Of a DNA stretch of 64,000 nt, positions 3,031-53,054 are shown piece after piece (the stretch's first letter is position 1; the number at the start of each line of letters is the position of its first letter). Position numbers and translations under genes: made by a program. The stretch is from Fistulifera solaris (lineage: Eukaryota > Bacillariophyta > Bacillariophyceae > Naviculales > Stauroneidaceae): positions 248,001-312,000 of the forward strand of contig AP026172.1 in NCBI GenBank assembly GCA_030295235.1. Direction: 5' to 3'. A model generated the notes under the pieces. That model saw nothing but the letters and a program-made list of their open reading frames with translations. It was not told where the DNA came from and made no database searches.

Positions 3031-6000
3031 ATGTGGAACAGCAACAACAATCCGAACGATCATCGGAATCGACATTACCCACCACAGCCACCGCCGGGCT
3101 ATCATTACCGTCAATCGCCTCCTACGTACCCCGATCCGCGGTACCCCCCGCATCATCCTCCCTACGGATACGGTCCTTACTGGCCTCCGCCGCAACATCA
3201 GCCTCCTCACGGTGAACGCCCCCGGAGCGGCAGCCACGGAGAGAACGTTTATTACCCGGAATTCAGGCACCACCCCGGAGATCATGCCAGAGAAGAAGAT
3301 ACGTTCGTGCCCGTCGCGCACCCAGAGGACGAGGAGGTCGCGGATGTCGCCGTTAGTGGAGTAGCTCCCCGAGGAAAACCGGAAGCCATGGCACAAGCCC
3401 TGGCGGCCGCGAAGATTGAGACGAAACGTGAAGAAATTGCGGAAATGAAACGCAAAGAGGAGGAACGCATGAAGTATGACGAAGACATGGAGGAAGATCC
3501 TGTCATGGAGGTGGAAGTCGAGGCAGAACCTATTCCAGAAGAAGACGAGGATGAAGCAATTGCCGAGCCTGTAGTTCAGTCATCGTCGCTTATCAAGAAA
3601 CCATTGGAAGCGAAAAGAAAAGCCCTAGTCGCAAGAAGAAACCAAAGCCGCCACTGTCGTCGTCAAGTTTGGAAGGTACTGGCTCAAATCTTTTGAGTCG
3701 TCCGGTGGATCCTGTTTCAGAAGTGGAGTGGGAAAATTTGGATGCATTAATGAATCAGTTCTGCCGCGTTCCTTTATTGGCAGAATTCAGTCGGCCTGTC
3801 TCGCTCTTACACCCAGAAGTAAGTATGATGTTGGGAATGTAGCATTGTGGAGCGATTTACCGGACTAACACCGGAATGTTCCGTTTTATTGCAGCTTATT
3901 TCCACTTATTCAAAGATCGTCAAGCATCCATTGGACCTTGGCCATATATGCCGAGGCATACGTCGTCGTCAATACAAAAACCTTCGCGATATACGCCTAG
4001 ACATGTGGCGCGTCTTTGCCAACTGCGTCAAGTATCATTCGCACCCGAACAACAAAGAGGCTGTCCCCTCCTTTGTTTCGATTGCTTTGCATTTGCGCGA
4101 ATTCTTTAATAATTTGTGGAACGAATATATGCTACCATCGGATCTCCCGGACAACGCTTCAACCACTATGAAAGAAATGTTCCAAACGAGACAGAAAGAT
4201 CGCAAATCAATATTGGAAAACTCAGGTGTGCTTACCATTACTCTGAAGATCACCGGCGTTACATCTCGTACAATCAGGAAATTCATCAAGGACGGTGGCA
4301 GGGTTGATGCGCTTGACACAGACGCTGTCTTTGGGCCGGATGCCAAAGAACAAGATAGAGATCTGGAAGTCGTTGTTGCGAATTTGACAAAGATTCGAGA
4401 AGACCTGATGGAGAGAGAGGACGATTATGCTCTTGAAAAATTTTACCAGGATCTAAAAGCTGCGTATACAATTGATGTTCTGGAAGAGAATCCGGCTCTT
4501 CGCAATCGCATTGGAAACCGCATTACACGTATGTTCTGGAAATTGTTCTTGCCGTTGCACGAAGCAAATACGAGAGGTGTGTCACAGTCGAGTATATGGG
4601 GCAACATTGCTGCGACTATCTGGGCCAGAGAAAGCAGTAAAAAACCGTTTTGGCCTGCACTTTGCCTCGGAATTTTGGCTCCAGAAGACCAAAGAGAGTC
4701 GTGGCACGAAAGCATTACGCAACGAAATGAAATGAGGCTCCCGGAGAAGCTTCGAGCGCCGTTGGAGGCGTCGCGAAACAAGTGTACCTTGGCACAACAG
4801 CGACAGCCCCTAAGTTACTTCATGGTTGAGTTTCTTGGAACCCACGAATTCATCTGGGTCCGCGAAACGGATATCATTGAAAACTTCGATGCAAGCAAAG
4901 ACCCGAACAAAGATGCTTCTTCTTCGAAGAAAAAGCGTGCGTCGAGAAGCGCAACGTCTAGTGTCATTGGATCGAAGACTTATGCCACGGCTCTGGAGGA
5001 ATGTACTTGGGCCATGGAAGAATACGAATCCGTGTTGCAGGATTGCTACAATAACACAAGCATTGGTGACACTGCTCAGGTCAATGAAGAAGAAGACGGC
5101 GATGATGTCAACTACAGCTACGCTGTTTTGGCACAATCCGACGACGAAGCTGACGACGAAGACACTCATGGATACGCTTATGATGATGCGACAATGTCCT
5201 TGTCGGATGTAGACGAAGCTAATTTCCTCTTGGAACATACAGGCTTACTGGACACTAGTTCTGAAGGCCGAAAGAACGCTAAAAAACGGGCACAAGCCAT
5301 GAAGAAAACGAGTATCGAGAAGCTTGGCGACACAAAGTCAAAGGGACGTAAAGATTTTAAATCAAAGAAAGAATCGAAACGAAAGGATGCCCAGCGGGCG
5401 AAAGAAGAAAAAAACTCGAGAAGCTCAGCGAGCAAAGGATTTGGATCGGGAGTTGAGGAAGGAAGAAAAAGAACTAGAAAAACGAAGAAAGAAACGTATG
5501 CGAGAGCGAGAGAAGGCTCTTCGACTAGAGACCCGCAAAAATAAAAAGCGCAGGTCGAGTCTCGGTAATGAAGACGATGATCGCGGATTGACTCTTGATA
5601 AACGAGCTAGAGCAACGGCGATAGTAAAAGCGTATCTGACACGGCTTGCACAAGATGACGACCATAAAAATCTTGGTATCGGTGGGGTAATGAACATCCC
5701 TGCGGTTATGATTGACTCGACTGGTCTTCTCGGCATGGCACTCGCTTTTCGATCTGCTGCTGGCGAGATTCCTGTCCCTGACGATGGGGACGATTCGATG
5801 GCTAGGTTGAAGCCCTGGGCTGCTGTTGACACGGAATCGCAGAAAACAAGTGCTGAGCGTATTGAAGCTCTTCAGACCAAGATACGTCTTCTAGAAGCCC
5901 ACATCAAGAAGAAGAGAAACAATATCAAGGTCCGAGGGGAGTTGACACAGGAAGCAATATCCAAACGGCTCAGTATGGAGGAGAGAATCGTTGCTGACGA

Positions 6001-6283
6001 TGAGCTGGCGCGCCGCAATCCATACAAGAAAAAGAAGCGGTACCCTTCACCAAAATCGACGACTAAGTCGAATCGGTCAAAGGAAGCAAATGACGAGACT
6101 GAAGATGACGAGGAGGACGAAGAAGATGATGCTGGAAGTGAGAAGCTACGGAGGGAGGACGACGACAACGGCGACGATGAAGATGATGACGATAAAACTC
6201 TAGAAAGTGCCAATCGCTCCGATGAAGATGTAGAGAGTGCAGCGTCTGCTGACATCGACGCTATGGACGTTGAAAACCCCTAG
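3031..6283 (+). CDS. Bromodomain protein with Pro-rich N-terminus and acidic/coiled-coil C-terminus
   Basis: Probable acetyl-lysine reader in the nucleus. The ATG at 3031 starts a Pro/Tyr/His-rich stretch and an acidic, Lys-rich linker. An intron lies at 3819-3894. The bromodomain spans the splice: VPLLAEFSRPVSLLHPE joins LISTYSKIVKHPLDLGHI, then FANCVKYHSHPNNK with the family Asn-Pro. The C-terminal half is highly charged, with a Lys/Arg/Glu-rich predicted coiled coil near 5380-5560 and acidic runs at 6090-6200. Two one-base frame breaks sit in homopolymers: A run 3613-3616 (one base short) and A run 5408-5414 (one base long). With both corrected the protein is about 1058 residues. The frame before and after each break keeps the same composition, so I read this as one gene, not two or three. 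Confidence 0.8.
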
Positions 6284-6328
6284 ATAGTACTCCGTAATTA
6301 GAATACCTTTCCACAGTCTTAATCATAA

Positions 6329-8129
6329 TCATTGGTTTAAGGAATCCAAGTGGGGCTCGAACCGAAAATGATGATCTCTCTTGTTCTGTCTCATAATTTC
6401 GAGAAACGTTTGCTCGTAGCCAGAGAAGATTAAATGATCTTTGATGATAGAAGGTAGTTTAGCTTGACAAATGCGAAATTTCATTTCATGATATGTGGCT
6501 ACTGACACGACCTACCTTCTGCCATCCTACGTGTCACGTCAATCTCAGAGAAAAAAGTATTCGGTACGTAGCATCCTGCCATACCCACCCCGTCTCTATA
6601 AATATGGATCACTTGCCCAGGAACGAAAATCTCTGGTGTGATGCGATTTGTGACATCCCTCTCGATCAAATGATCGAAGTGCTCTCGAATGAGCGGAGTA
6701 ATCGTCTTACGAATCTTGCGTACTGCGTCATCGCTGAAAATCGTAGAGTTGAAAGTTTTCAGTGCTTTCAGAATGCTATCGATATCTCGCTGACTATACG
6801 GAATCCAATCGAATTCCTATTGAGCAAACAGCATGCGTGGAAAGATGAGAAAGTGCCAAACGAATTTTGTATTGTATCAGTAGCAGCGAAACGTACCACC
6901 AGGTTGAGCAGGAGATTTGTAATAGTAGCCGCACTGCATCGTGGAATCGCATCCGAATCATTGACAACGGTGGTGATGAAGGTTGACTTTTCGGCCAAAT
7001 CTTTTGAGAGGCACGCAGGACAACCGAAGCCAACAACCTCGACTTCAAAATTGCTCAACTCGTTGAATTCGATACCTGCAATCGACGCAGCACCAGCGCC
7101 AAGCGAATGTCCCACTAATTTGAGTTTGATTTTTGACCTCCCAGCCTTTCTACAAATTTCTTCTAGAGTTGCTCGATGTTTTTCGAATAGAAACTTTCCC
7201 CCTTTCAAAATGTAACCATGAGCCTTGCCTCCTCGATATCGTTCCGAATCACACAAGATATCCGTTATCGCATCCGCAATGGATTTGGTTCCTCGGACAC
7301 CCATGATCACTTCCAAGGGCGGAGCCATGAAGCCTTTCGTCTCTTGATTGCGCGGAATAGCGACATAATGCGCGGGCTCTCCGGGTGCACTGTCCACATT
7401 GGCATAGACCAAATCCGCCGGGACGGCCGCTCCACCCAATCCTTTCTCGATGTCGCTGACCGTGTCTGCATATGCCAGCAAGGCTAATTCGAGATCGCGG
7501 TTGAGTTCGTCGACCTTGTCAATGTCAATTGTGGAACAAAATCGGTGAATTCGCGCCTTCCAACTCGGATTCTTTCGTTCATCTTCACGCTCCAAGTAAT
7601 AAATGAATGTCGTTGGAGTCAATTTGGACAAGTCGATATCACCCACATATTTATCGGCGACTTGTTTGATGAGCGCCACGTACGTCTTGACCAATTCAAA
7701 GACTTCCTCAATGGTGAGATTATCGTGTAACTCTCCTTTTTGCATTTTATCACGTGCCTGTGCTACCAAATCGACCAATGCATCATTTTGCGCTTGTTCA
7801 TTCCCACTTATGAGAGACATGAAACCTGCCGCGATTTGTTGAAAGGCCATGATGGTATCTGGATGACGTTTATCGTCGTCTTTTGCGTCAGTTGTTTCGT
7901 CGTCGAGTGCCAACGCTTTTTTGAATGTATCTTTGATATCCGAAATATCGAAAGAAAACGGATGCGATTCTTCCGATGAAGCAGAAGACTTGCGTTCTAA
8001 TAGAGTTCGAGAAGCGTGAAAGGATTGAGCGGCAATCACTGTAGCCAACAAGGCGCGCGTTTTGGTCGATTGTCGAGCCAATCGTTGAACGGAATGTTGC
8101 AGCCGTAACTTTGCCGACGATCGAAACAT
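6329..8129 (-). CDS. Class 3 (fungal-type) triacylglycerol lipase / diacylglycerol lipase-like
   Basis: Serine lipase of the alpha/beta-hydrolase fold, likely acting on acylglycerols. On the minus strand the ATG is at 8129 (MFRSSAKLRLQ); the frame upstream has no ATG. Three exons (8129-6897, 6789-6516, 6438-6329), with introns of 107 and 77 nt, give about 538 residues. The basic N-terminus with a short hydrophobic stretch (ALLATVIAAQSF) suggests an organelle leader or membrane anchor. Catalytic features are the nucleophile elbow GHSLGAG, the oxyanion segment VIMGVRGT, the aspartate in NDSDAIPR, and the family signature VPGQVIHIYR followed by a DHL His in the last exon, which is restored only by splicing GAA-G to ATCATTTA. 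It is divergent from the bZIP gene at 8884, and the start codons are about 750 bp apart. Confidence 0.88.
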
Positions 8130-12752: not shown

Positions 12753-15671
<2,919 letters not shown>

Positions 15672-16344
15672 GACAATTAATATTATTTAGTCATAGTTAT
15701 TACGTTTGAAGCCGAATTTGTGATTATTTTTAAATTAAAAGCCGGCTAGGGACTCGGAAAACCATTGTCGTTTTTTATCCATGAGAAATTATTAGTACAA
15801 ATATCGTCTTGGACGTCAACTAACTTACAAAAGAAACCAAATTGTCGTTTAACGGGTATCCTACTATCTAACGAGACTTTCTAGAGGGGCTTGCATGCCT
15901 CCCGGGAATCTAAATACAGCTCGAGTTTTGGATCATTTGCAATCATTTCAACAAAATCGTTCAAATGCAGCATCACCAGGGCCCAAAAAGTACGAATATC
16001 GTTGCTGCTGCTGGGACATATAATTGGGCGTTGGTAGAACTGCCTATCAGTATCGTGTTAGTTCTGTTAAGATGCGTTCTCTCTCTCTCTCTCTCTAGAG
16101 CCTCTATTTGTTGCCTTGACCTCGCATCATTGTGTCCGAGTTTTCATGACTGGATTTTTCATTAGTCATGAGTTATCTTGAGCCGCCTCTCGCGCCTCGC
16201 ATCCGCACTCGCATCGCATCTCGCATCGCCATCATCCTCAATCACTCGCCACCTCTTTTTTTTAATAACGTGTCATCGTCTTTGATCCTAATTATCTCTT
16301 TAATTACCGATCGATGTTTCAAACAAACTGAAAAAGGTGCTACA
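15672..16344. other. Intergenic spacer with CT microsatellite
   Basis: 3' flank of the secreted protein gene and 5' region of the inositol synthase fusion. A CT repeat lies at about 16078-16097, and a pyrimidine-rich leader with a T run follows at 16255-16263. No gene supported. Confidence 0.6.
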
Positions 16345-19300
16345 ATGAACTTTGAAACGAGCTCTACCGTGAGTAGTTCCGCTTTTTCCATGGCATCATC
16401 GAGCTTTCGCAGCCAGCCGACAACTTCTTCTCCACCGCAGTCGTTTAAGGACGCGAAACCGAAAACAACCGGGAGTGTCGGAATCATGCTAGTTGGAATA
16501 GGTGGATACAATGGGACTACTCTCTTAGCGGGTATTATGGCCCATCGCTTGAATATCACGTGGCGAGGACCTTTCGGAGATATACGGACTCCAAATTACA
16601 ACGGTTGCATCACGCAATTAAAGATGAAAGGCGGCGGTGTTGGCTACAAAGATCGCATCAAAGGACTCGCAGATGCTACAACTGCTGCCGTCGGTGGTTG
16701 GGTACGTCGTTTCTATCTTGCTTGCTTCGTTTGAAAAGTATTCTTTCTTTTTTGGGGGGGACCTCACAAAAATTGTGGCAGGATATTCGACCCACTAAAT
16801 GTGGAGATGCTCTTTTGGAACAACAAATATTGGATTATGATCTTGTGCGGCAAGTACAGGACGAGCTTAATAATATTAATATTTTCAAGGGGGCTTACGA
16901 CAGTCGCTTCATCGGTCCTTCGCAACACGCCACCGCGACACACATTCTCACCGAATTCGAGGCCCCGAACGCATCGGAAACCATAAAATGCATAAGAGCC
17001 GATATTCGATATTTTAAATGGAAAAATGGTGTAGTAGGACACACGACAGTCATTTGGAGTGCGAGCGTCGAACCCAACAGTGAATTGGTGGGAACGTGGA
17101 AAACGGTCGATGAATTGCTCATGGCGTTTGAACAAAGTGAATCCAAACGCGGTGGACCCATTCCGCCCAGTCTCATTTACGCTACCGCCGCTTTACTTGA
17201 AGGATGCTCTTTCATTAATGGTGGTTCACAGAACACATTGGGTTGTCCTGGTCTTATGGATTTGGCACGGCAGCAGCAAGGCGTTTATTGTCTGGGAACG
17301 GATTTCAAGGCGGGGCAGACAAAGTTCAAAACCGCGGCAGTGGAATATTTACGAACCATGGGATTGACTCCGTTAGTCATTGCCAGTTCGAATCATTTAG
17401 GCAATAATGACATGCGGAACTTGGCTTCGGCGCCGGATACTTCGAAAGCAAAACTGCGTGTCAAGCACGATATATTTGCTCCTTGGGAAGAAAACATTGA
17501 CCATAAAGTCAGTATCATGTACACGGAGCTTATCAATGATGAAAAACGAGACTTTGTCGAATATACCAGCGCTGGGTTCCTGGGACAGCTTCACACTATG
17601 GTGACTTACACACGGGCGTCGGATAGCGTTTTGTGCGTTCCTTTGATTCTTGACGGTGCAGTCTGGTGTGATTTCTTTTCTCGGTGCAGTTGGCCTTACG
17701 AAAAAGTCGCCAAGGCACTAGCGTATCTCTTTAAGGTACCCGAAGGCGCAGCGATGGGTGTCGATCCCGGATTTTTTGCGCAAATGCGAGAACTCGAAGC
17801 ACAAGTTATAGCAGCAAACGAGAGTCGCGGTTCCGGTAGAGACGCTGGTAAGCGGGTTCGGATCATTACAAATGAAAAGGCAAAGACGGAATGGTCGGTC
17901 CCTGAAGGAGGAGTTATTTGCGCCGGTCTCGCTTGCGTAGACATGCAACTAAACAACGCGACGGGGGGTGACGGCGGAGAAGGAATCGAGTCATTCCAAG
18001 GCGAAAAGAGTATTGGTGGTGGAAGTGTCAGTATGGCGTGCAAAACGCTCGCTCGTCTTTGTCACGGCGAAGCAGTAGATCCAGCACACGCTCCGCCTCG
18101 GGCAGTGTTGTCAAACATAGTTCCGATCTGTAAGATCGGTATGGATGGTACTGGAGACAAGTTGCTGAATTTGTTAGAAGCAACCGGTGAAACATGTCGG
18201 AATGTGAATGTGAGGCACTTGAAACACAATCGTGACCCTGAAGGCAGAACAGCTTTGTCTGTCTTGCCTATCTACCGTGACGGTCGACGCGGATGCTTCT
18301 TTGATGCGGCTTCGAACGTAACATTCTCAGCAATGGAAATCATTTCGGATCTCAAGTCTTTGAGGAATAGAGAAAATTCGTCATATGGTGCATTCCTCTT
18401 CGGCTATCCTCATTTACTCCCCAAACTTCAAGGTGAAGCACTAGCGCAAGTGCTAATTGAAGCTCGCAATGTTCTAGTGAACGGAGGAATATGCGCTGTC
18501 GATTTAAACGGTGTCCCTGAAGTCTTGTTCCAGCGAGACAAAAGAAGCGGTCTCCGCGCTGATATGAAAAGTGACCCCATTATCGGAGCTGCTTTGCAGC
18601 ACACAGACATACTTCACATGAATGTAAGTTATCATTTCACGAATACTTATGGCGTGCTACAAAGGAGAACCTGTACTCACGTGTGTTTGAATCACAGGAA
18701 GAAGAACTGTGTCTGCTTACCGGTTGTATATTGACAGGGAATACCGTACAGGACGACGGAACAATTCGAACAGCAGCCCGGTTATTTTTGGACGCAGGAG
18801 TAGGAATTGTTGTGGTGACCCGAGGTAAGCAGGGAAGCGTCGTATACTGCAATAGTAAACTGCGCTCCACTCTCCCGGCGTTGTGGGAGGGTCGCTCTGT
18901 AACCACACCTGCATCGGTGTTGGCGAGAGGGACGATTATTAACTCCAACGGAGCTGGAGATGCGTTTACTGCAGGATTCCTGTTGGCTGCTATGCTACGA
19001 CACACGGGTTTCGATGTAAAGAGTGACGCGGAAATTAGCAGTCCAGCGTCATCGTCGCGAGGAACTCCCACGAAAATTCCGGCAAAAAAGCAGTTGACTC
19101 CGTATGCCTTGTACATGCAAGAAAACTACCTTACTTTGAAAACGCAACTTCAAGGAGATAAGAAAGCAATATTTTCCAAGTGCCATGAATTATGGGAGAA
19201 TGAATCACCTGCTGTTAAGGCAATGTACGAACGTCGAGCCTCCGAGGAGAGGAATACAGCGAACCAACCCGAGGAAGTGAATTCTTCATTCGACTCCAAC

Positions 19301-19480
19301 CAAATGATGACCGACTCGAATAAAGATCGTACGTTATCATTGGAATCTGCCGCTACATTAGCCACTCTCATCGCCGCGCGCCACATTGATGTTTCCACTC
19401 GAGATGACTTGCATCTGGATTTGAACACATTACTCGAACATTGTCTCTTATTGCCCAACAATGGCCTTGAAGAGATTTAA
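16345..19480 (+). CDS. INO1: Inositol-3-phosphate synthase fused to PfkB-family sugar kinase with inserted HMG box
   Basis: Multidomain protein of 993 residues from three exons (16345-16701, 16782-18623, 18698-19480) with no frame break. Residues about 48-480 are myo-inositol-1-phosphate synthase, which turns glucose 6-phosphate into inositol 3-phosphate with NAD: the dinucleotide motif is GIGGYNG, and family blocks include SPxTxY-like [31 protein letters not shown] and SSNHLGNND. Residues about 495-830 are a PfkB kinase: [27 protein letters not shown], the N-x-x-E element in [12 protein letters not shown] at the second splice, and the catalytic loop [11 protein letters not shown]. Then comes an HMG-box-like helix set (about 862-920: [11 protein letters not shown] ... 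[18 protein letters not shown]), followed by a Ser/Ala-rich helix resembling the PfkB C-terminus. Plant PfkB proteins include a myo-inositol 3-kinase, so both enzymes could feed the same product; that is inference. The ATG at 16168 in the same frame is an alternative start. Confidence 0.9.
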
Positions 19481-21249: not shown

Positions 21250-22875
21250 ATGAGAGTACTTTTAATCATAGTGGCCTTTGTAACGACGACGACGACGACG
21301 ACGACGACTCTTGCGGCAGCCCCGTACACGGCGTACCCAATCTATCCTCCGTACTGTTCGACGCCCACACAAATGCAACAACGTCGTATTCCACCATTAT
21401 TATTAGTAAAGGAAGGCTCGTACGGTGCCTCACAAATCAAACATGTCACGGCCATTATTCGACACGGTGCTCGGACACCGTGGGCTGGAAAATTGCCCTG
21501 TTGGTCCGATTATTACGATGATGCACATCCGCCGTGGAACTGTGAACTCCAAACCACGATCACACCCGAAGTGTCGGCCACGTGGTTTCGCAAACAATAC
21601 GACGCTCTCCAATCTCCCGAATTCAATTTGACGAATGAATTAAGCGGAGGAACCTGTCAATTGGGGCAATTGTTGGCAATGGGGGTCGTGCAAGAACTAT
21701 TGAACGGAGAACACTTGCGGGATGCCTACTTGGGTCACGAGGACAGTCGCATGCAATTATTATTCAGCCAAAATAATAAGAATAATAATCATAATCATAA
21801 TAAGCCGTGGGAATCCTTGTATTATCGAGCAGACGATGAACAACGGACGCTCATGTCGGGACGTGTCCTCTTGAAGGGATTGTTTGGCAATGAAGTGACA
21901 TCGTCATTGACGATTCCGATGCACACGGCCGATTATGAACGAGATATCGTCGGGGAAAACGAAAATGTGTGTCCGCGATTGACGCAACTACGGGAATTGT
22001 TTTATTTGACCGATGAATTCCGTCAATTCAATGCATCGGTTGAAGCCCAACAATTGCGCGACTTTCAACGACGTCAATTGCGTACAGATCACGACCTGGA
22101 ATTGGATTGTTTCATGACGACCATTTGTACGGATCGTATGTTACCCGATGCCATTAATGATTATGCCGGAGAAGATCAAACGGAAAGTATGTTTTTGCGT
22201 CTAGTCAACTTCTATATACGACAATATACCAGTTTTGCCATGGCCAATGATGCGGAATACAGCAAGTTGGCGATGGGTCCCTTGTGGGCGGAAATTATGG
22301 ACAATGTCGATCGTGTCATTGCGGAGAACGACGACACATACCCGCGCTTGGCGCTCTTCAGTGGACACGATACCACCATTATTGGTCTCCTCGCGAGTTT
22401 ATCGAAAGTATACGATGGCTCGTGGCCTCCGTACGCTAGTAAATTGTTGTTGGAAATTCACGAGATTGATCTGGATGGTCGAAAAGATAAATCATTGTAC
22501 ACGACAGGATATGGTTTTCGATTGATTTACAATGGTCAAGTGTTAACTGACAAAGTGGAAGGATGCCCCAAAGACGCTCACATTTGTGATGTCGCCATAT
22601 TGAAACGTCATTTGAATTTCCCGTTGCGGGATCGCGATTGCTCACTGTTGGATATTCCGACGACCGCATCATCATCTTCTTCATCATCGGAGAGTGGTAT
22701 GGCTCAAGTCTTTGATTTGTTTCTGTCACCATCAGGCTTTGGAGTCTTTGTGGTCGTTGTGTTGAGTAGTATGGCCGTAGGCAGTGTCCTCATGTTTGTG
22801 TTGTTATCGAAACTGCAACCTCAATTGATTCATCGAAGATCGTACGGAGCGGCCTCTCAAGAAAATCCTGAGTAG
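21250..22875 (+). CDS. Histidine acid phosphatase, membrane-anchored
   Basis: Branch 2 histidine phosphatase that hydrolyses phosphomonoesters through a phosphohistidine. 541 residues, single exon. The signal peptide (MRVLLIIVAFV) runs into a Thr run encoded by an ACG repeat. The catalytic RHGARTP lies at about residues 74-80 and the proton-donor motif SGHDTT at about 373-378, as the family requires. A C-terminal hydrophobic helix (GVFVVVVLSSMAVGSVLMFV) and a short basic tail make it a type I membrane protein with the enzyme facing the lumen or outside. An Asn/Lys/His low-complexity insert (about 21773-21804) is encoded by an AAT repeat. The substrate is unknown; relatives include lysosomal-type acid phosphatases and phosphoxylose phosphatase. 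No frame break. Confidence 0.92.
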   Translation: MRVLLIIVAFVTTTTTTTTTLAAAPYTAYPIYPPYCSTPTQMQQRRIPPLLLVKEGSYGASQIKHVTAIIRHGARTPWAGKLPCWSDYYDDAHPPWNCELQTTITPEVSATWFRKQYDALQSPEFNLTNELSGGTCQLGQLLAMGVVQELLNGEHLRDAYLGHEDSRMQLLFSQNNKNNNHNHNKPWESLYYRADDEQRTLMSGRVLLKGLFGNEVTSSLTIPMHTADYERDIVGENENVCPRLTQLRELFYLTDEFRQFNASVEAQQLRDFQRRQLRTDHDLELDCFMTTICTDRMLPDAINDYAGEDQTESMFLRLVNFYIRQYTSFAMANDAEYSKLAMGPLWAEIMDNVDRVIAENDDTYPRLALFSGHDTTIIGLLASLSKVYDGSWPPYASKLLLEIHEIDLDGRKDKSLYTTGYGFRLIYNGQVLTDKVEGCPKDAHICDVAILKRHLNFPLRDRDCSLLDIPTTASSSSSSSESGMAQVFDLFLSPSGFGVFVVVVLSSMAVGSVLMFVLLSKLQPQLIHRRSYGAASQENPE

Positions 22876-48398: not shown

Positions 48399-51300
48399 TT
48401 AAGATCCACTCATATAGTTTTCGACAAGCGACGACGTGCCGAACTCCCTAACTTCATTTGGGGACAATAGCATTACCTCGACGAACAAAGGCTGCAGATA
48501 ATTCCATGCTTTGTCAAATCCCATAGTTGTTACAAAGGCGCCGATCAAAGCATGGAAAGAGAAAGTGAGTACGGACGTATCTTTAGGTCCAACCTTTTTC
48601 GTCTTTCCACAAAGGCGACCACCTCTCAAGGCAGTGTAAGCAGGATCCCTGTTGCTACAAGACCGTTTCCGAAATTCTTCCGTCCCGCCAGGGACTAACC
48701 AACCTCCGTGAAGATCCCAGGATTCTTTACCTAGTATTTCTGCCCTTCTCGAGTGCCCGATAAAGTTGTCAGCAACCCCATCGTCAAAAAGTGCGTTGTG
48801 GAGACCGTTTTTCGTGAAAATATACGCCAGAGTATCTTCAGAAACAACTATTGAAAAGAGCAGCATGAGGTCACCTGCAGTAATGTGCGGATACCTCTCA
48901 TATAAGTAACTTGTTACACCGAGCTGTAGCGCTCTGCATCCGATGACGTTTAGCATCTTTAGCAACGACCAGGTGTTCTTAAGTTCCGCAAAGCCTGACA
49001 GATCAGGGCAGCATAAATTCTCATTGTAGATTGCAAAGTAATTGATTTCCGCGTTGTATAGAGAGCACAATATCAATGAATACAAAGAACAATCCTCCTG
49101 AGCCTTCGATGTGAGCTGAGTTCCTAGCACCTTGTCAACTACTTCTAGTCCTTTCTTTAGCTTGTTGGACGCAGCAGATGGTATATTAGAGAAGTACTCT
49201 TTCACGACATTGCTGCGCATCTTGCCCAACGGCGAGGACTCGAACAGTTCCTTTCCAGAAAAGGATATCGTTTCCGCTGACCCTTCCATCGGTAGCTTCG
49301 CTTTTTCTAGTAGAGCTTTGAGTAGTCTTAATTCCTCGTCGCATCTTTGGCTTGCAAGGAATGTAGCCGCAACGCAGGCTTCAAATACATCCGAGAGAAA
49401 ACAATCAGGGAATTCAAGCGTTTCCCCTTTTTGCGAATGATTGTATGAGTACGCACTCGACCAAGAACAGCGCTTTGACAGTATAAGGCGAGGCAGTCCG
49501 ATTTCCAAAGCCCCGCCCGCGATTGAGCGATTTTTGGCTGAAGTCGAGAGCGAGTCAAAGGGGGTAGAATAAGTCTCGCTCAAACAAAAATGCGACTCGG
49601 TCAACGCAAGCGCGACAAAGAACGCTAAGACACGGTCACCGAAGAACTCTAGGCGTTCGAAAGGTGTTGCTGCTTTTACAGTGCATCGAGTCGTCGCAAC
49701 AAATATTAGATCAGTAAAACGTCGAGAAAACGCCTCCACTTCTCGAATACTGTCAAGACAAGTTGCTGCAGATGAATCACGCAAGCAAGAATGTATTGCC
49801 GACGTAGCAAGACGACGTACATCAATCTTCCTTTCCAAAAATGGCATGAAAGAATCCGCTTGGTCCAGAATATAGACAAAGTCACGGGGAAGTGGAAGTA
49901 GGGAACACAATTCAGGAACAAGATACACCGGCTCAGGAGGCGGTGATTCCATAGGATTGGCATCAGCATGTTTGTTTATTCTCGATGCCCTGATCATAGG
50001 TACATGTCCGTACTGAATCCTTACATCATACCTGCAAACAAGATAGAGCATTGAGCTGACCCAAAGCTGCCAATAAGGAGCGAGAATCGATACTACGTAC
50101 TTTTTCAAGTAATAATCGGAAAACGTTGCGGTATCAAGATCAAGGCCGAAGCGCGTTTTGAGTTGCTCCTTTTAGCCCTCTTCACACGGAATCCAATTAG
50201 TTTCGAGTTCGATGAAACGTTATGGCTACTGGCAATAGCATGTGGCGCATATAGGTCACCGCAGTGCCGGAGAAAGCGGTTGCATATTACACTTTCGCAA
50301 AAATTTGATCTTGGTTCCTTGCGTACACTCAACAACCCCCACATTAAAATGACAAATGCAAGTGCCTTTGACGACCAGGTATCTTGTCCGGCAAATACAC
50401 ACCAACCAAAAAAAGAAAACGGTAATGATGGGGAAACGCTTATCCAACTTGCCCAGGTATGGAACAATCCAGTCTCCAAAATTCGCATCGTAAAGGGGAC
50501 GGGCTCGTCGGAAGCGGACTGTTTCATTGATACAGTGCCAGTCGATGCAGATTGCGGACGATTTGGAATCAAGAGGAACAAACATATACGTCCGATCACG
50601 TAAGTAACATTCATTCCCAGCGTACTGAGATTTACGTGACGCACACATCGCAGAGTCGTACTGCTTTCCAAACCCATATTGCTTCCATTTTGCCAGGAGC
50701 TCATTGAATGCAACAAGCTCCTGTAAAGAATTGGAAACATTTTGACCTTCATCGTTATCAAATCGGAGGACAGTTCGGTCCACAAGCTCGACTTGACACG
50801 AGGCTAACTTTCCATCCTCTACCAGGGCCTGAAATTGGATCGTGTCGGAATATGAAGCGCACGCATCGCTATGACTCAGTGGATCCTTCGGCAGTAAAAC
50901 ACCAATCCGTGTGCACGCTTTCCTGCTCTGTATCCACGGGATCTTCTCTTCCGCAACAAGTTTTCCCGACTTCGTTTTTAATACAAGTTCGTACAAAAAA
51001 TAGGTTTCATTTCGTTCAAATGGAGAAGACGCCCACGACGGGAGCTTGTTGTTGTAATGTGTAGATTGTGGTAAGGCCTGGAGGATGCTTTTTCGATTGC
51101 TGTTGGCGTTATGAGGGGAAAGCCTTTTTATAAAAGAAACGTCGAGATGTTTGTGCAATTCCTGAACTGCAGACTGCAACGCAACAGATTTCGAAGTACA
51201 TGAAGTTCCAGTGACAGACAGTCGAACCGGATCTCGTACAAATATTTTGCAATACAAACGTGTCGGCTTTGTTAAATTCCAATCGTCGCATTCATCGAGA

Positions 51301-52052
51301 TCGCTTTCTTGGTGAAACGAAATTTCCGGTTTCCGGATGCCCAAATCGTGAATCGTACGTACCCAGTCCGGAAACTGGTCATAGCCATTTTCTAAACACT
51401 CTTCTTCTTGTGCGTCATGCAACGGAATCGGCTGTTCGGTAACAAAGAGTGGAACAGCTCCATCATGCCAGCCCAATCGACTAGGATCCAGCCGTAAAAT
51501 AGCCACAAGGGCGCAACTTGCCTTGGCAGCCTGCTTCTTATCCCAGTATACACATCCATCGATTGTTATGTAATCCGCCGAAAAGAAATTGCGCGTAGCT
51601 TTCGCCAAAAACGTCGTCGAATCCGGACTTTGCAAGAGTGCTTGCGGAAGACCCGAACTCACTTTTATACCCGAAAGTGGACATTCGAAGTAAAATCGCC
51701 ACCAAATTTTACTTTCCGACAAAGACTCGCATCGAATGTTGTCTCGAACATTCAGTTTCTTTTCTTGTAGTCGCGTTCGTTGCGCCTTGTCGTCGTAGTA
51801 TTGCATCAAAAGTGATATGGGATTTCGCGACGGTTCCTTCTGCAGCCAGTCGTATAGTTGAAAGACGGCTTCCGTGCTCTTTTCGATTGTTATGGGGCAT
51901 TCGGTAGCAAGCGATTCGAGAGAATTGTCGTCTTCATCGACATTTCGGCTTTTATTTAAACCCTCACCCCTTCCGTTCGCAAACGAAAACGAAAACGGCA
52001 ACTTTGATTCACACCACTTTCTCTGCAAGGAAGACTGTTTGAAACCATTCAT
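48399..52052 (-). CDS. Dicer-like double RNase III protein without helicase
   Basis: RNA-silencing endonuclease that would cut dsRNA to small RNAs. Minus strand, ATG at 52052. Order: a dsRBD-like segment (51740-51480: WWRFYFECPLSG ... KKQAAKASCALVAI), a Dicer-dimerisation-like segment (TGTSCTSKSVALQSAVQELH), a platform/PAZ region (YMFVPLDSKSSAICIDW; then TATFSDYYLKKYDVRIQYGH across an intron at 50032-50100; VYLVPELCSLLPLP), RNase IIIa (ERLEFFGDRVLAFFVALAL) and RNase IIIb (PHITAGDLMLLFS ... LTFSFHALIGAFVTTMGF). No DExD/H helicase is encoded upstream in the same direction. The RNase IIIa signature keeps E..EFFGD, but the first signature of IIIb is poorly conserved. The frame shifts by one base at the T run 50170-50173 (one short), and an unresolved intron or break lies at about 50300-50450. 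About 1200 residues. Confidence 0.82.
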
Positions 52053-53054
52053 TTGTTATAATTATACCAAGTATGGTGCAGGTACAAGGCATCTCACATG
52101 AAATGGCCGATCTGTCGTTTCCCTCGTTGGGTCGCGTCGAAGATTTTTGGATTTCCTTCATGACTGAAATAATGTAGTCGTGGTTTTGTTCAATCAACTC
52201 TGTGGTCTACCGTAGAAATGCGAAATGATGTGATGCGCATAATTTACTATGACGAAAGAATACGAATTACGCATTTGAAATTCTGATTTAGACTAGTTGA
52301 TTTCTCATTGAAGATAATACAAAGCTCTCGCCAAAAGGAGGAATGCGTTCACACGAACTCATGTTTCGGTTCTGGAAAAATGGTTCATGATTGGAATGGA
52401 GGAGGTGGAGTCATGATGAAAAGGTCGCCTACACGTTGGGTCTATAGTATTTACAGAAATCTACGATCTGCAAACTACTTCATAGGATCTTAAAGTGCAT
52501 CTGCAGTCTGTAGTGAAGAAATCGCATTGCATCGTAATTCGCAATGATAAGGAGGTTGTGGGTTGTGGCGTAGCCCTCTGGCCAGGAGCCATGATGGGTG
52601 ATTGTGCACTGTACTTTTCGATCATTATTTGCAATGGAAATAGACGACAAATAATGAGAAAGAAGAAAGAGATACATACCAGGTACCAGAGGTCTAGAGC
52701 AAGAACACGTTGTCAAAATATCCTTGACCATTGTAAGCAAGAAGCAAGACGCCAGGCAAGGTCACCAGACTTTGGTCTATGGAATGCAATCGGCGTACGG
52801 AGTTCAAAGAGGAAAGACATAGAACACAGAAACAGAAGAATGCCAGATGAACTCGTGACTGTTATGTATTAGTTTTTATATAAGCCTTTTCTCGCCGGAA
52901 TCCTGGGCGTCCGAAACAAAGAGTGTTTCTCGCGCTCCGCACAACAATCCACATTATTTCGCAAGCAATCTTCGTCCCGTTTGCCGTCGATAGAACACTT
53001 CACAAAAGCAATGGATCGTTTTGAGCCTGTAAACGACACTTTCTCTATCGCATC
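52053..53054. promoter_or_regulatory. Divergent spacer between Dicer-like gene and secreted Cys-rich gene
   Basis: About 1 kb. An open frame at 52495-52872 (125 codons) is basic and featureless and I do not call it a gene. A GGTACC-centred motif lies at 52676-52690. The last 150 bp are the probable promoter and leader of the secreted protein. Confidence 0.5.

Follow-up and report, generated by a model that had tools for sequence, protein, structure and literature searches.

A single reading frame in the 64-kb window analysed here (the whole stretch of Fistulifera solaris DNA, 64,000 nucleotides) appears to combine three modules that belong to quite different protein families: an inositol-3-phosphate synthase (MIPS), a PfkB-family kinase and an HMG box. 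An earlier note, made from the DNA letters, had read the frame as one polypeptide with a full MIPS, a kinase that might be a myo-inositol 3-kinase, and an HMG-box-like segment lodged between the PfkB catalytic loop and the C-terminal helix of the kinase. Is this really one protein, are its two enzyme parts what they seem to be, and what could an HMG box be doing inside a kinase?

One three-exon gene and its surroundings

The spliced frame begins with the ATG at 16345, ends at 19480 on the + strand, and encodes a product of 993 amino acids (Table 1). Both splice joins are backed by homology. The join at intron 1 (GGW/DI) lies inside a block that aligns across the junction to MIPS homologues, and the join at intron 2 (HMN/EEE) aligns across the junction to the sequence FGNEEE of the adenosine kinase 2a9y. 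When codon usage is scored with nine further ORFs of the window as the training set, frame 0 comes out ahead in exon 1, the MIPS-type domain, the linker, both kinase parts, the insert, the HMG box and the C-terminal tail, and does not do so in the introns. Spliceosomal introns as short as these two suit a eukaryotic alga. The start codon is less certain, since an in-frame ATG upstream at 16168 (16168-16344, + strand) could add 59 residues, over which the codon score is slightly positive.

Table 1. Positions of the exons, introns and protein modules of the fusion gene within the 64-kb window.
Feature	Position	Strand	Description and basis
Exon 1	16345..16701	+	N-terminal leader, then the first part of the MIPS Rossmann fold domain (GIGGYNG); gene model, Pfam
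Intron 1	16702..16781	+	80 nt, GT..AG, phase 0
Exon 2	16782..18623	+	614 stop-free codons; remaining MIPS, linker, N-terminal PfkB half
Intron 2	18624..18697	+	74 nt, GT..AG, phase 0
Exon 3	18698..19480	+	C-terminal PfkB half, HMG insert, kinase tail, stop
MIPS-type domain	16477..17801	+	residues 45-459, span with intron 1; PF07994, PF01658
Altered MIPS loop DTSKAK	17436..17453	+	residues 338-343; motif comparison
MIPS-kinase linker	17802..17939	+	about residues 460-505; no in-frame stop, coding-like codon usage
PfkB kinase body	17925..19027	+	about residues 501-843, with intron 2; PF00294
Kinase insert	19028..19327	+	100 residues, 844-943; PfkB match lengthens on its removal
HMG box	19085..19261	+	residues 863-921; PF00505 and fold match
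C-terminal kinase tail	19328..19477	+	residues 944-993; carries the helix next after the PfkB GAGD helix

The points of fusion do not coincide with introns, because exon 2 holds the MIPS-type domain together with the N-terminal part of the kinase, and exon 3 holds the remainder of the kinase together with the HMG box. These two shared exons, together with the codon usage that is consistent throughout, make it very unlikely that the combination is an artefact of assembly or of gene modelling. Pfam profiles of all three families match the spliced protein. The gene model, the homology-backed splice joins and the coding-like codon usage thus bear out the reading of the frame as one polypeptide, and the three modules form, on this in silico gene model and its domain assignments, a genuine single protein.

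Several other ORFs of the window deserve a note. A histidine acid phosphatase of branch 2 (21250-22875, + strand) follows the fusion gene at a distance of about 1.8 kb; prostatic acid phosphatase and LPA phosphatase type 6 rank first among its solved matches, and none of the six matches is a phytase. On the other side of the fusion gene, a large protein (12756-15671, + strand) exhibits three DUF7467 stretches in Pfam, a long Pro-Val/Pro-Ala repeat, and near its start a hydrophobic stretch that on visual inspection resembles a signal peptide. Farther away, one ORF carries a bromodomain and a PWWP domain (3829-5541, + strand). Another ORF (48399-50171, - strand) is perhaps Dicer-like, with two stretches of ribonuclease III and, at 25.7 bits, a match to PAZ that falls below the cut-off of 28.8; the ORF on its 5' side (50256-52055, - strand) exhibits no Pfam match at E-value≤0.01.

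The MIPS-type domain and the kinase

The first module exhibits two Pfam matches above the curated cut-offs in the spliced protein, NAD_binding_5 (PF07994; residues 45-459, E-value = 5e-59) and Inos-1-P_synth (PF01658; residues 297-401, E-value = 1.3e-19); in NCBIfam this module brought up no family. A PDB sequence search matches it to nine different MIPS of solved structure (E-values from 4.6e-59 to 1.2e-10), none of them N-terminal of residue 18. The domain is 35-38% identical to chains 9m53, 1vko, 9f2k and 1jkf, which we take to be eukaryotic MIPS and which are mutually 58-65% identical. Its identity to chain 7nwr, presumably a bacterial MIPS, is 32%, and to the best 80 of 575 relatives on genome contigs 28-33%. 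A tree of 35 rows (the query, the five PDB chains and 29 of 81 MIPS loci hand-picked for spread) groups the domain with the four eukaryotic chains at 100/100, with an end branch of 3.82 for the query versus 0.08-0.47 for those chains. By its sequence the domain is a very diverged member of the eukaryotic group, a placement that is unsure because long branches, of which the tree program itself warns, may mislead.

The divergence reaches conserved positions. For comparison we used 86 MIPS sequences, namely the five PDB chains and 81 loci (the best 80 of the 575 genome relatives and one viral contig). The query keeps 28 of the 37 positions that are invariant in this set and 40 of the 58 that are at least 95% conserved; those retained include the equivalents of D320, K322, K329, N350, N354, D356, K373, K412 and D438 of 1jkf. 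A loop of the pattern [ST]KE.[ST]K, present in 84 of the 86 sequences (all five PDB chains and 79 of the 81 loci), is absent from the query, which reads DTSKAK at this site in a loop four residues shorter. The two remaining loci, L059 and L074, are Bacteroidaceae MIPS and both read TKRRSK.

We assume that K369 of the yeast enzyme, which lies in this loop, matters for catalysis; a literature search on such a role retrieved no paper. Residue 306, taken as a catalytic lysine, falls on no lysine of chain 1jkf, and residue roles assigned to MIPS in this way are for this reason treated as leads only. MIPS catalysis may survive the change, since K341 or K343 could occupy the position of yeast K369 after realignment of the loop. 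The MIPS activity of the domain is nevertheless doubtful as judged from its residues, and the label "full MIPS" of the earlier note proved too strong for a domain that has lost a near-universal motif. The missing loop is also a warning that labelling this gene an "inositol-3-phosphate synthase" and nothing more may be incorrect.

The 81 loci also served in a search for related arrangements. The pattern [DN]..GAGD.F within an ORF of at least 200 aa was found at two of them, in flanks of up to 6 kb (shorter at contig ends); this is a narrow pattern and was the sole test for fusions in the genome MIPS loci, the best 80 of 575. With the pattern at only 2/81 loci, no conserved pairing of prokaryotic MIPS and PfkB genes shows, and an operon or neighbour link between the two was rejected. 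Single-sequence scans of viral contigs yielded no relative of the fusion. The alignment scan did find a MIPS relative there (6001-7143; 26% identity to the query) on a contig of 72.7 kb, with no PfkB signature nearby. Three known families in this order are not reported among the literature matches listed, nor is the fusion itself, several of the lists holding part of the matches.

The second module is a PfkB kinase, as had been read from the letters: Pfam PfkB (PF00294) matches residues 517-830 (E-value = 5.6e-12; 46 bits for a cut-off of 25.8), a di-glycine block lies at 531-533 and the GAGD motif at 818-821, and residues 815-828 fit the second PfkB signature (PS00584). The first signature, presumably PS00583 with an asparagine after the glycines, is unmatched, the query having a serine at that place (GGGSVSM). 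Since GAGD is kept, the kinase is probably active, on a sugar or a cyclitol. PfkB kinases act mainly on sugars, and the family includes myo-inositol kinases of plants and archaea.

The homology matches of the kinase are generic or weak. The best NCBIfam match is the IolC-type TIGR04382, at 39.7 bits for a cut-off of 300, and ribokinase ranks next. The best solved matches are adenosine kinases and ribokinases, with an E-value of 0.0014 at best, and no inositol kinase occurs among 21 PDB matches up to E-value = 10. A carbohydrate kinase on the Citrobacter freundii plasmid NZ_CP151862 is 27% identical to the query kinase and adjoins a sugar isomerase and a ketose-bisphosphate aldolase. Relatives in bacterial genomes, found in one of 188 genomes of one phylum and in 0/8 others, are distant. 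Naming a substrate from NCBIfam, PDB, plasmids (5 records) or genomes was rejected, the matches being only distant ones.

The myo-inositol 3-kinase proposed in the earlier note finds no backing in these generic or weak matches. The reading of that note is a same-product pair, in which an active MIPS would make inositol 3-phosphate from glucose 6-phosphate, a myo-inositol 3-kinase would make it by salvage, and the HMG box would simply be attached. The many conserved MIPS positions that are kept (D320, K322 and others in 1jkf numbering), the inositol kinases within the PfkB family and the IolC-type best match all suit such a pair, but the loss of the [ST]KE.[ST]K loop and the missing inositol kinase among the PDB matches do not, and we consider it improbable. 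Two routes that converge on one product would, moreover, offer no channelling. In this they would differ from three fusions of diatom metabolism described in the available extracts of PMC2173943 (TIM-GAPDH, UGP/PGM and G6PDH/6PGDH), each of which joins consecutive steps.

That precedent speaks instead for an enzyme of consecutive steps, in which the kinase would turn a hexose such as glucose or fructose into its 6-phosphate for the MIPS, or would use the MIPS product. The sugar isomerase and aldolase beside the C. freundii relative point the same way. So does the mainly sugar-directed activity of PfkB kinases. The unmatched first signature with its serine, the doubtful MIPS catalysis and an HMG box left without explanation count against it, and we regard this arrangement as unlikely.

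The HMG box and its place in the kinase

In the whole protein, the HMG_box profile (PF00505) matches residues 863-921 with 23.8 bits (E-value = 6.2e-5), slightly below the Pfam cut-off of 25.4. The segment 854-921 taken alone scores 29.8 bits (E-value = 8.5e-7), above the cut-off, and none of ten shuffled versions of it matched HMG_box at E-value≤1. AlphaFold2, run on residues 852-924 (73 aa) with no alignment, predicts three helices with a mean pLDDT of 79.1 and a pTM of 0.57.

A Foldseek search of this model against PDB returned 63 matches at E-values up to 10, the best at 0.27 and 0/63 at or below 0.001. Among the best 50 of the 63, the first 46 are HMG-box proteins or complexes, and unrelated helical proteins appear lower down. 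We assign UBF, SOX, HMGB, SSRP1 and Abf2p to the HMG-box proteins by their titles or by common knowledge, and in two RAG complexes we take the matched chain to be HMGB1. UBF box 5 (2hdz) superposes on the model with TM-scores of 0.75 (query) and 0.82 (target) and an rmsd of 1.0, and BAF57 (7cyu) with 0.74 and 0.86, respectively. PDB sequence matches of the segment are weak, an HMG protein at E-value = 0.026 being followed by a non-HMG protein at 0.032. Taken together, the profile score, the predicted fold and the shuffles make it very likely that an HMG box is present; the HMG-box-like segment of the earlier note thus clears the Pfam cut-off as a segment and resembles solved HMG boxes in its predicted fold.

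Its location follows from the behaviour of the PfkB match. With the insert (844-943) excised, the match rises to 51.5 bits and reaches profile position 287 of 302. The kinase without its tail scores 49.7 bits, and with five shuffled tails 48.9-49.2, all six matches ending at position 268; the gain from the real tail is thus small, about 2 bits, and lies at the expected place. The insert-free kinase aligns with the C. freundii kinase, the stretch beyond the GAGD helix included, and when the insert is retained, that post-GAGD stretch pairs with query residues flanking the insert on both sides. Because removal of the insert extends the PfkB match into the last 50 residues, the box most likely occupies the loop between the GAGD helix and a C-terminal kinase helix, which agrees with the position first proposed for it. 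A model of the whole of exon 3 shows three helices over the HMG box and is too poor (pLDDT 38.4) to place the insert. An HMG box within the fold of a metabolic kinase would be structurally unusual.

The helices need not touch DNA. They may instead be an arm for protein interaction or dimerisation in an ordinary cytosolic enzyme, the metabolic context being the more usual one for MIPS and PfkB proteins. The residue that intercalates into DNA (methionine in HMG-D) reads alanine in the query box, as judged by eye, which would suit such an arm. The specificity of the HMG match (the segment score and 0/10 shuffles) and the basic character of the segment (12 K/R versus 8 D/E, pI 9.4) tell against it, and we regard a purely interacting arm as less likely than not.

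At the opposite extreme, the whole protein could be a regulator, in which a degenerate MIPS and a kinase would be domains for the binding of metabolites, with the HMG box acting on chromatin. The extreme divergence of the MIPS-type domain and its lost motif would fit. There is precedent for both enzyme parts: PMC5444476, in the extract available, cites Latrasse 2013 for an Arabidopsis MIPS that acts in the nucleus with the histone methyltransferases ATXR5 and ATXR6, and the available portion of PMC3409070 describes sugar kinases with regulatory roles, mostly from other families. The kept GAGD of the kinase, the many kept MIPS positions and the single, weak NLS-like string in the protein (KRVR at 476, from a scan for K[KR].[KR]) argue otherwise, and a regulator of this kind seems to us a doubtful prospect.

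Proposed reading and comparison with known systems

We favour a joint reading with a probability of roughly 0.5: a three-module protein with a probably active kinase, a diverged MIPS, and an HMG box that serves as an outward tether. The MIPS-type domain would be a fast-evolving eukaryotic MIPS that has probably retained the binding of NAD and of a hexose or inositol phosphate, and its catalysis would be weakened or changed, since the near-universal loop is gone. Owing to the fusion, either site could use or sense the phosphorylated product made at the other. The HMG box would face outward and anchor the protein, with DNA or chromatin as the likeliest partner and another protein as a possible one; it would place the enzyme activity and take no part in catalysis.

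A nuclear or chromatin role of the box is speculation with a plant precedent. Carried further, it would give a chromatin-bound sensor, in which the altered MIPS and the PfkB kinase read the state of inositol or sugar phosphates and the in-kinase HMG box relays it to DNA; we think this an unlikely elaboration. If true, the nuclear role reported for Arabidopsis MIPS would be hard-wired in this protein, and an HMG box in a metabolic kinase would link inositol or sugar metabolism to chromatin within one polypeptide.

Among known systems, the diatom fusions of PMC2173943 resemble the present gene in carrying two metabolic enzyme domains per diatom reading frame. According to the extracts of that source, they differ in joining consecutive steps through spacers of 8 to 25 residues, and a MIPS-kinase pair is not among the fusions named there; the same extracts list genes for inositol phosphate synthase and inositol monophosphatase in two diatoms. 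Fusions of oomycetes and diatoms are also described in PMC2705460, in the main text of which the words inositol, PfkB and HMG are all absent by word count. The MIPS1 of Arabidopsis (PMC5444476, PMC6429088) would share with our protein a MIPS linked to chromatin, the nuclear location being putative here, and differs in that the extracts of these sources mention no fused HMG box; in the extract of PMC6429088, cotton MIPS is placed in the nucleus, the plasma membrane and endomembranes.

With respect to eukaryotic MIPS, the query matches the whole Pfam domain, retains many conserved positions and groups at 100/100, whereas it is only 35-38% identical, is without the KE.SK loop and is fused to a kinase. 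To the PfkB/ribokinase family, as represented by the C. freundii plasmid kinase, it is linked by the GAGD motif, the di-glycine block and the C-terminal helix; it differs in its 27% identity, in the change of the first-signature asparagine to serine, in the 100-residue HMG insert ahead of the last helices and in the MIPS placed in front. The predicted three-helix fold and the segment E-value of 8.5e-7 relate the box to solved HMG boxes (UBF box 5, 2hdz; BAF57, 7cyu; SSRP1, 5vwe), from which it would be set apart by the alanine at the putative intercalating position and by its site within a kinase loop.
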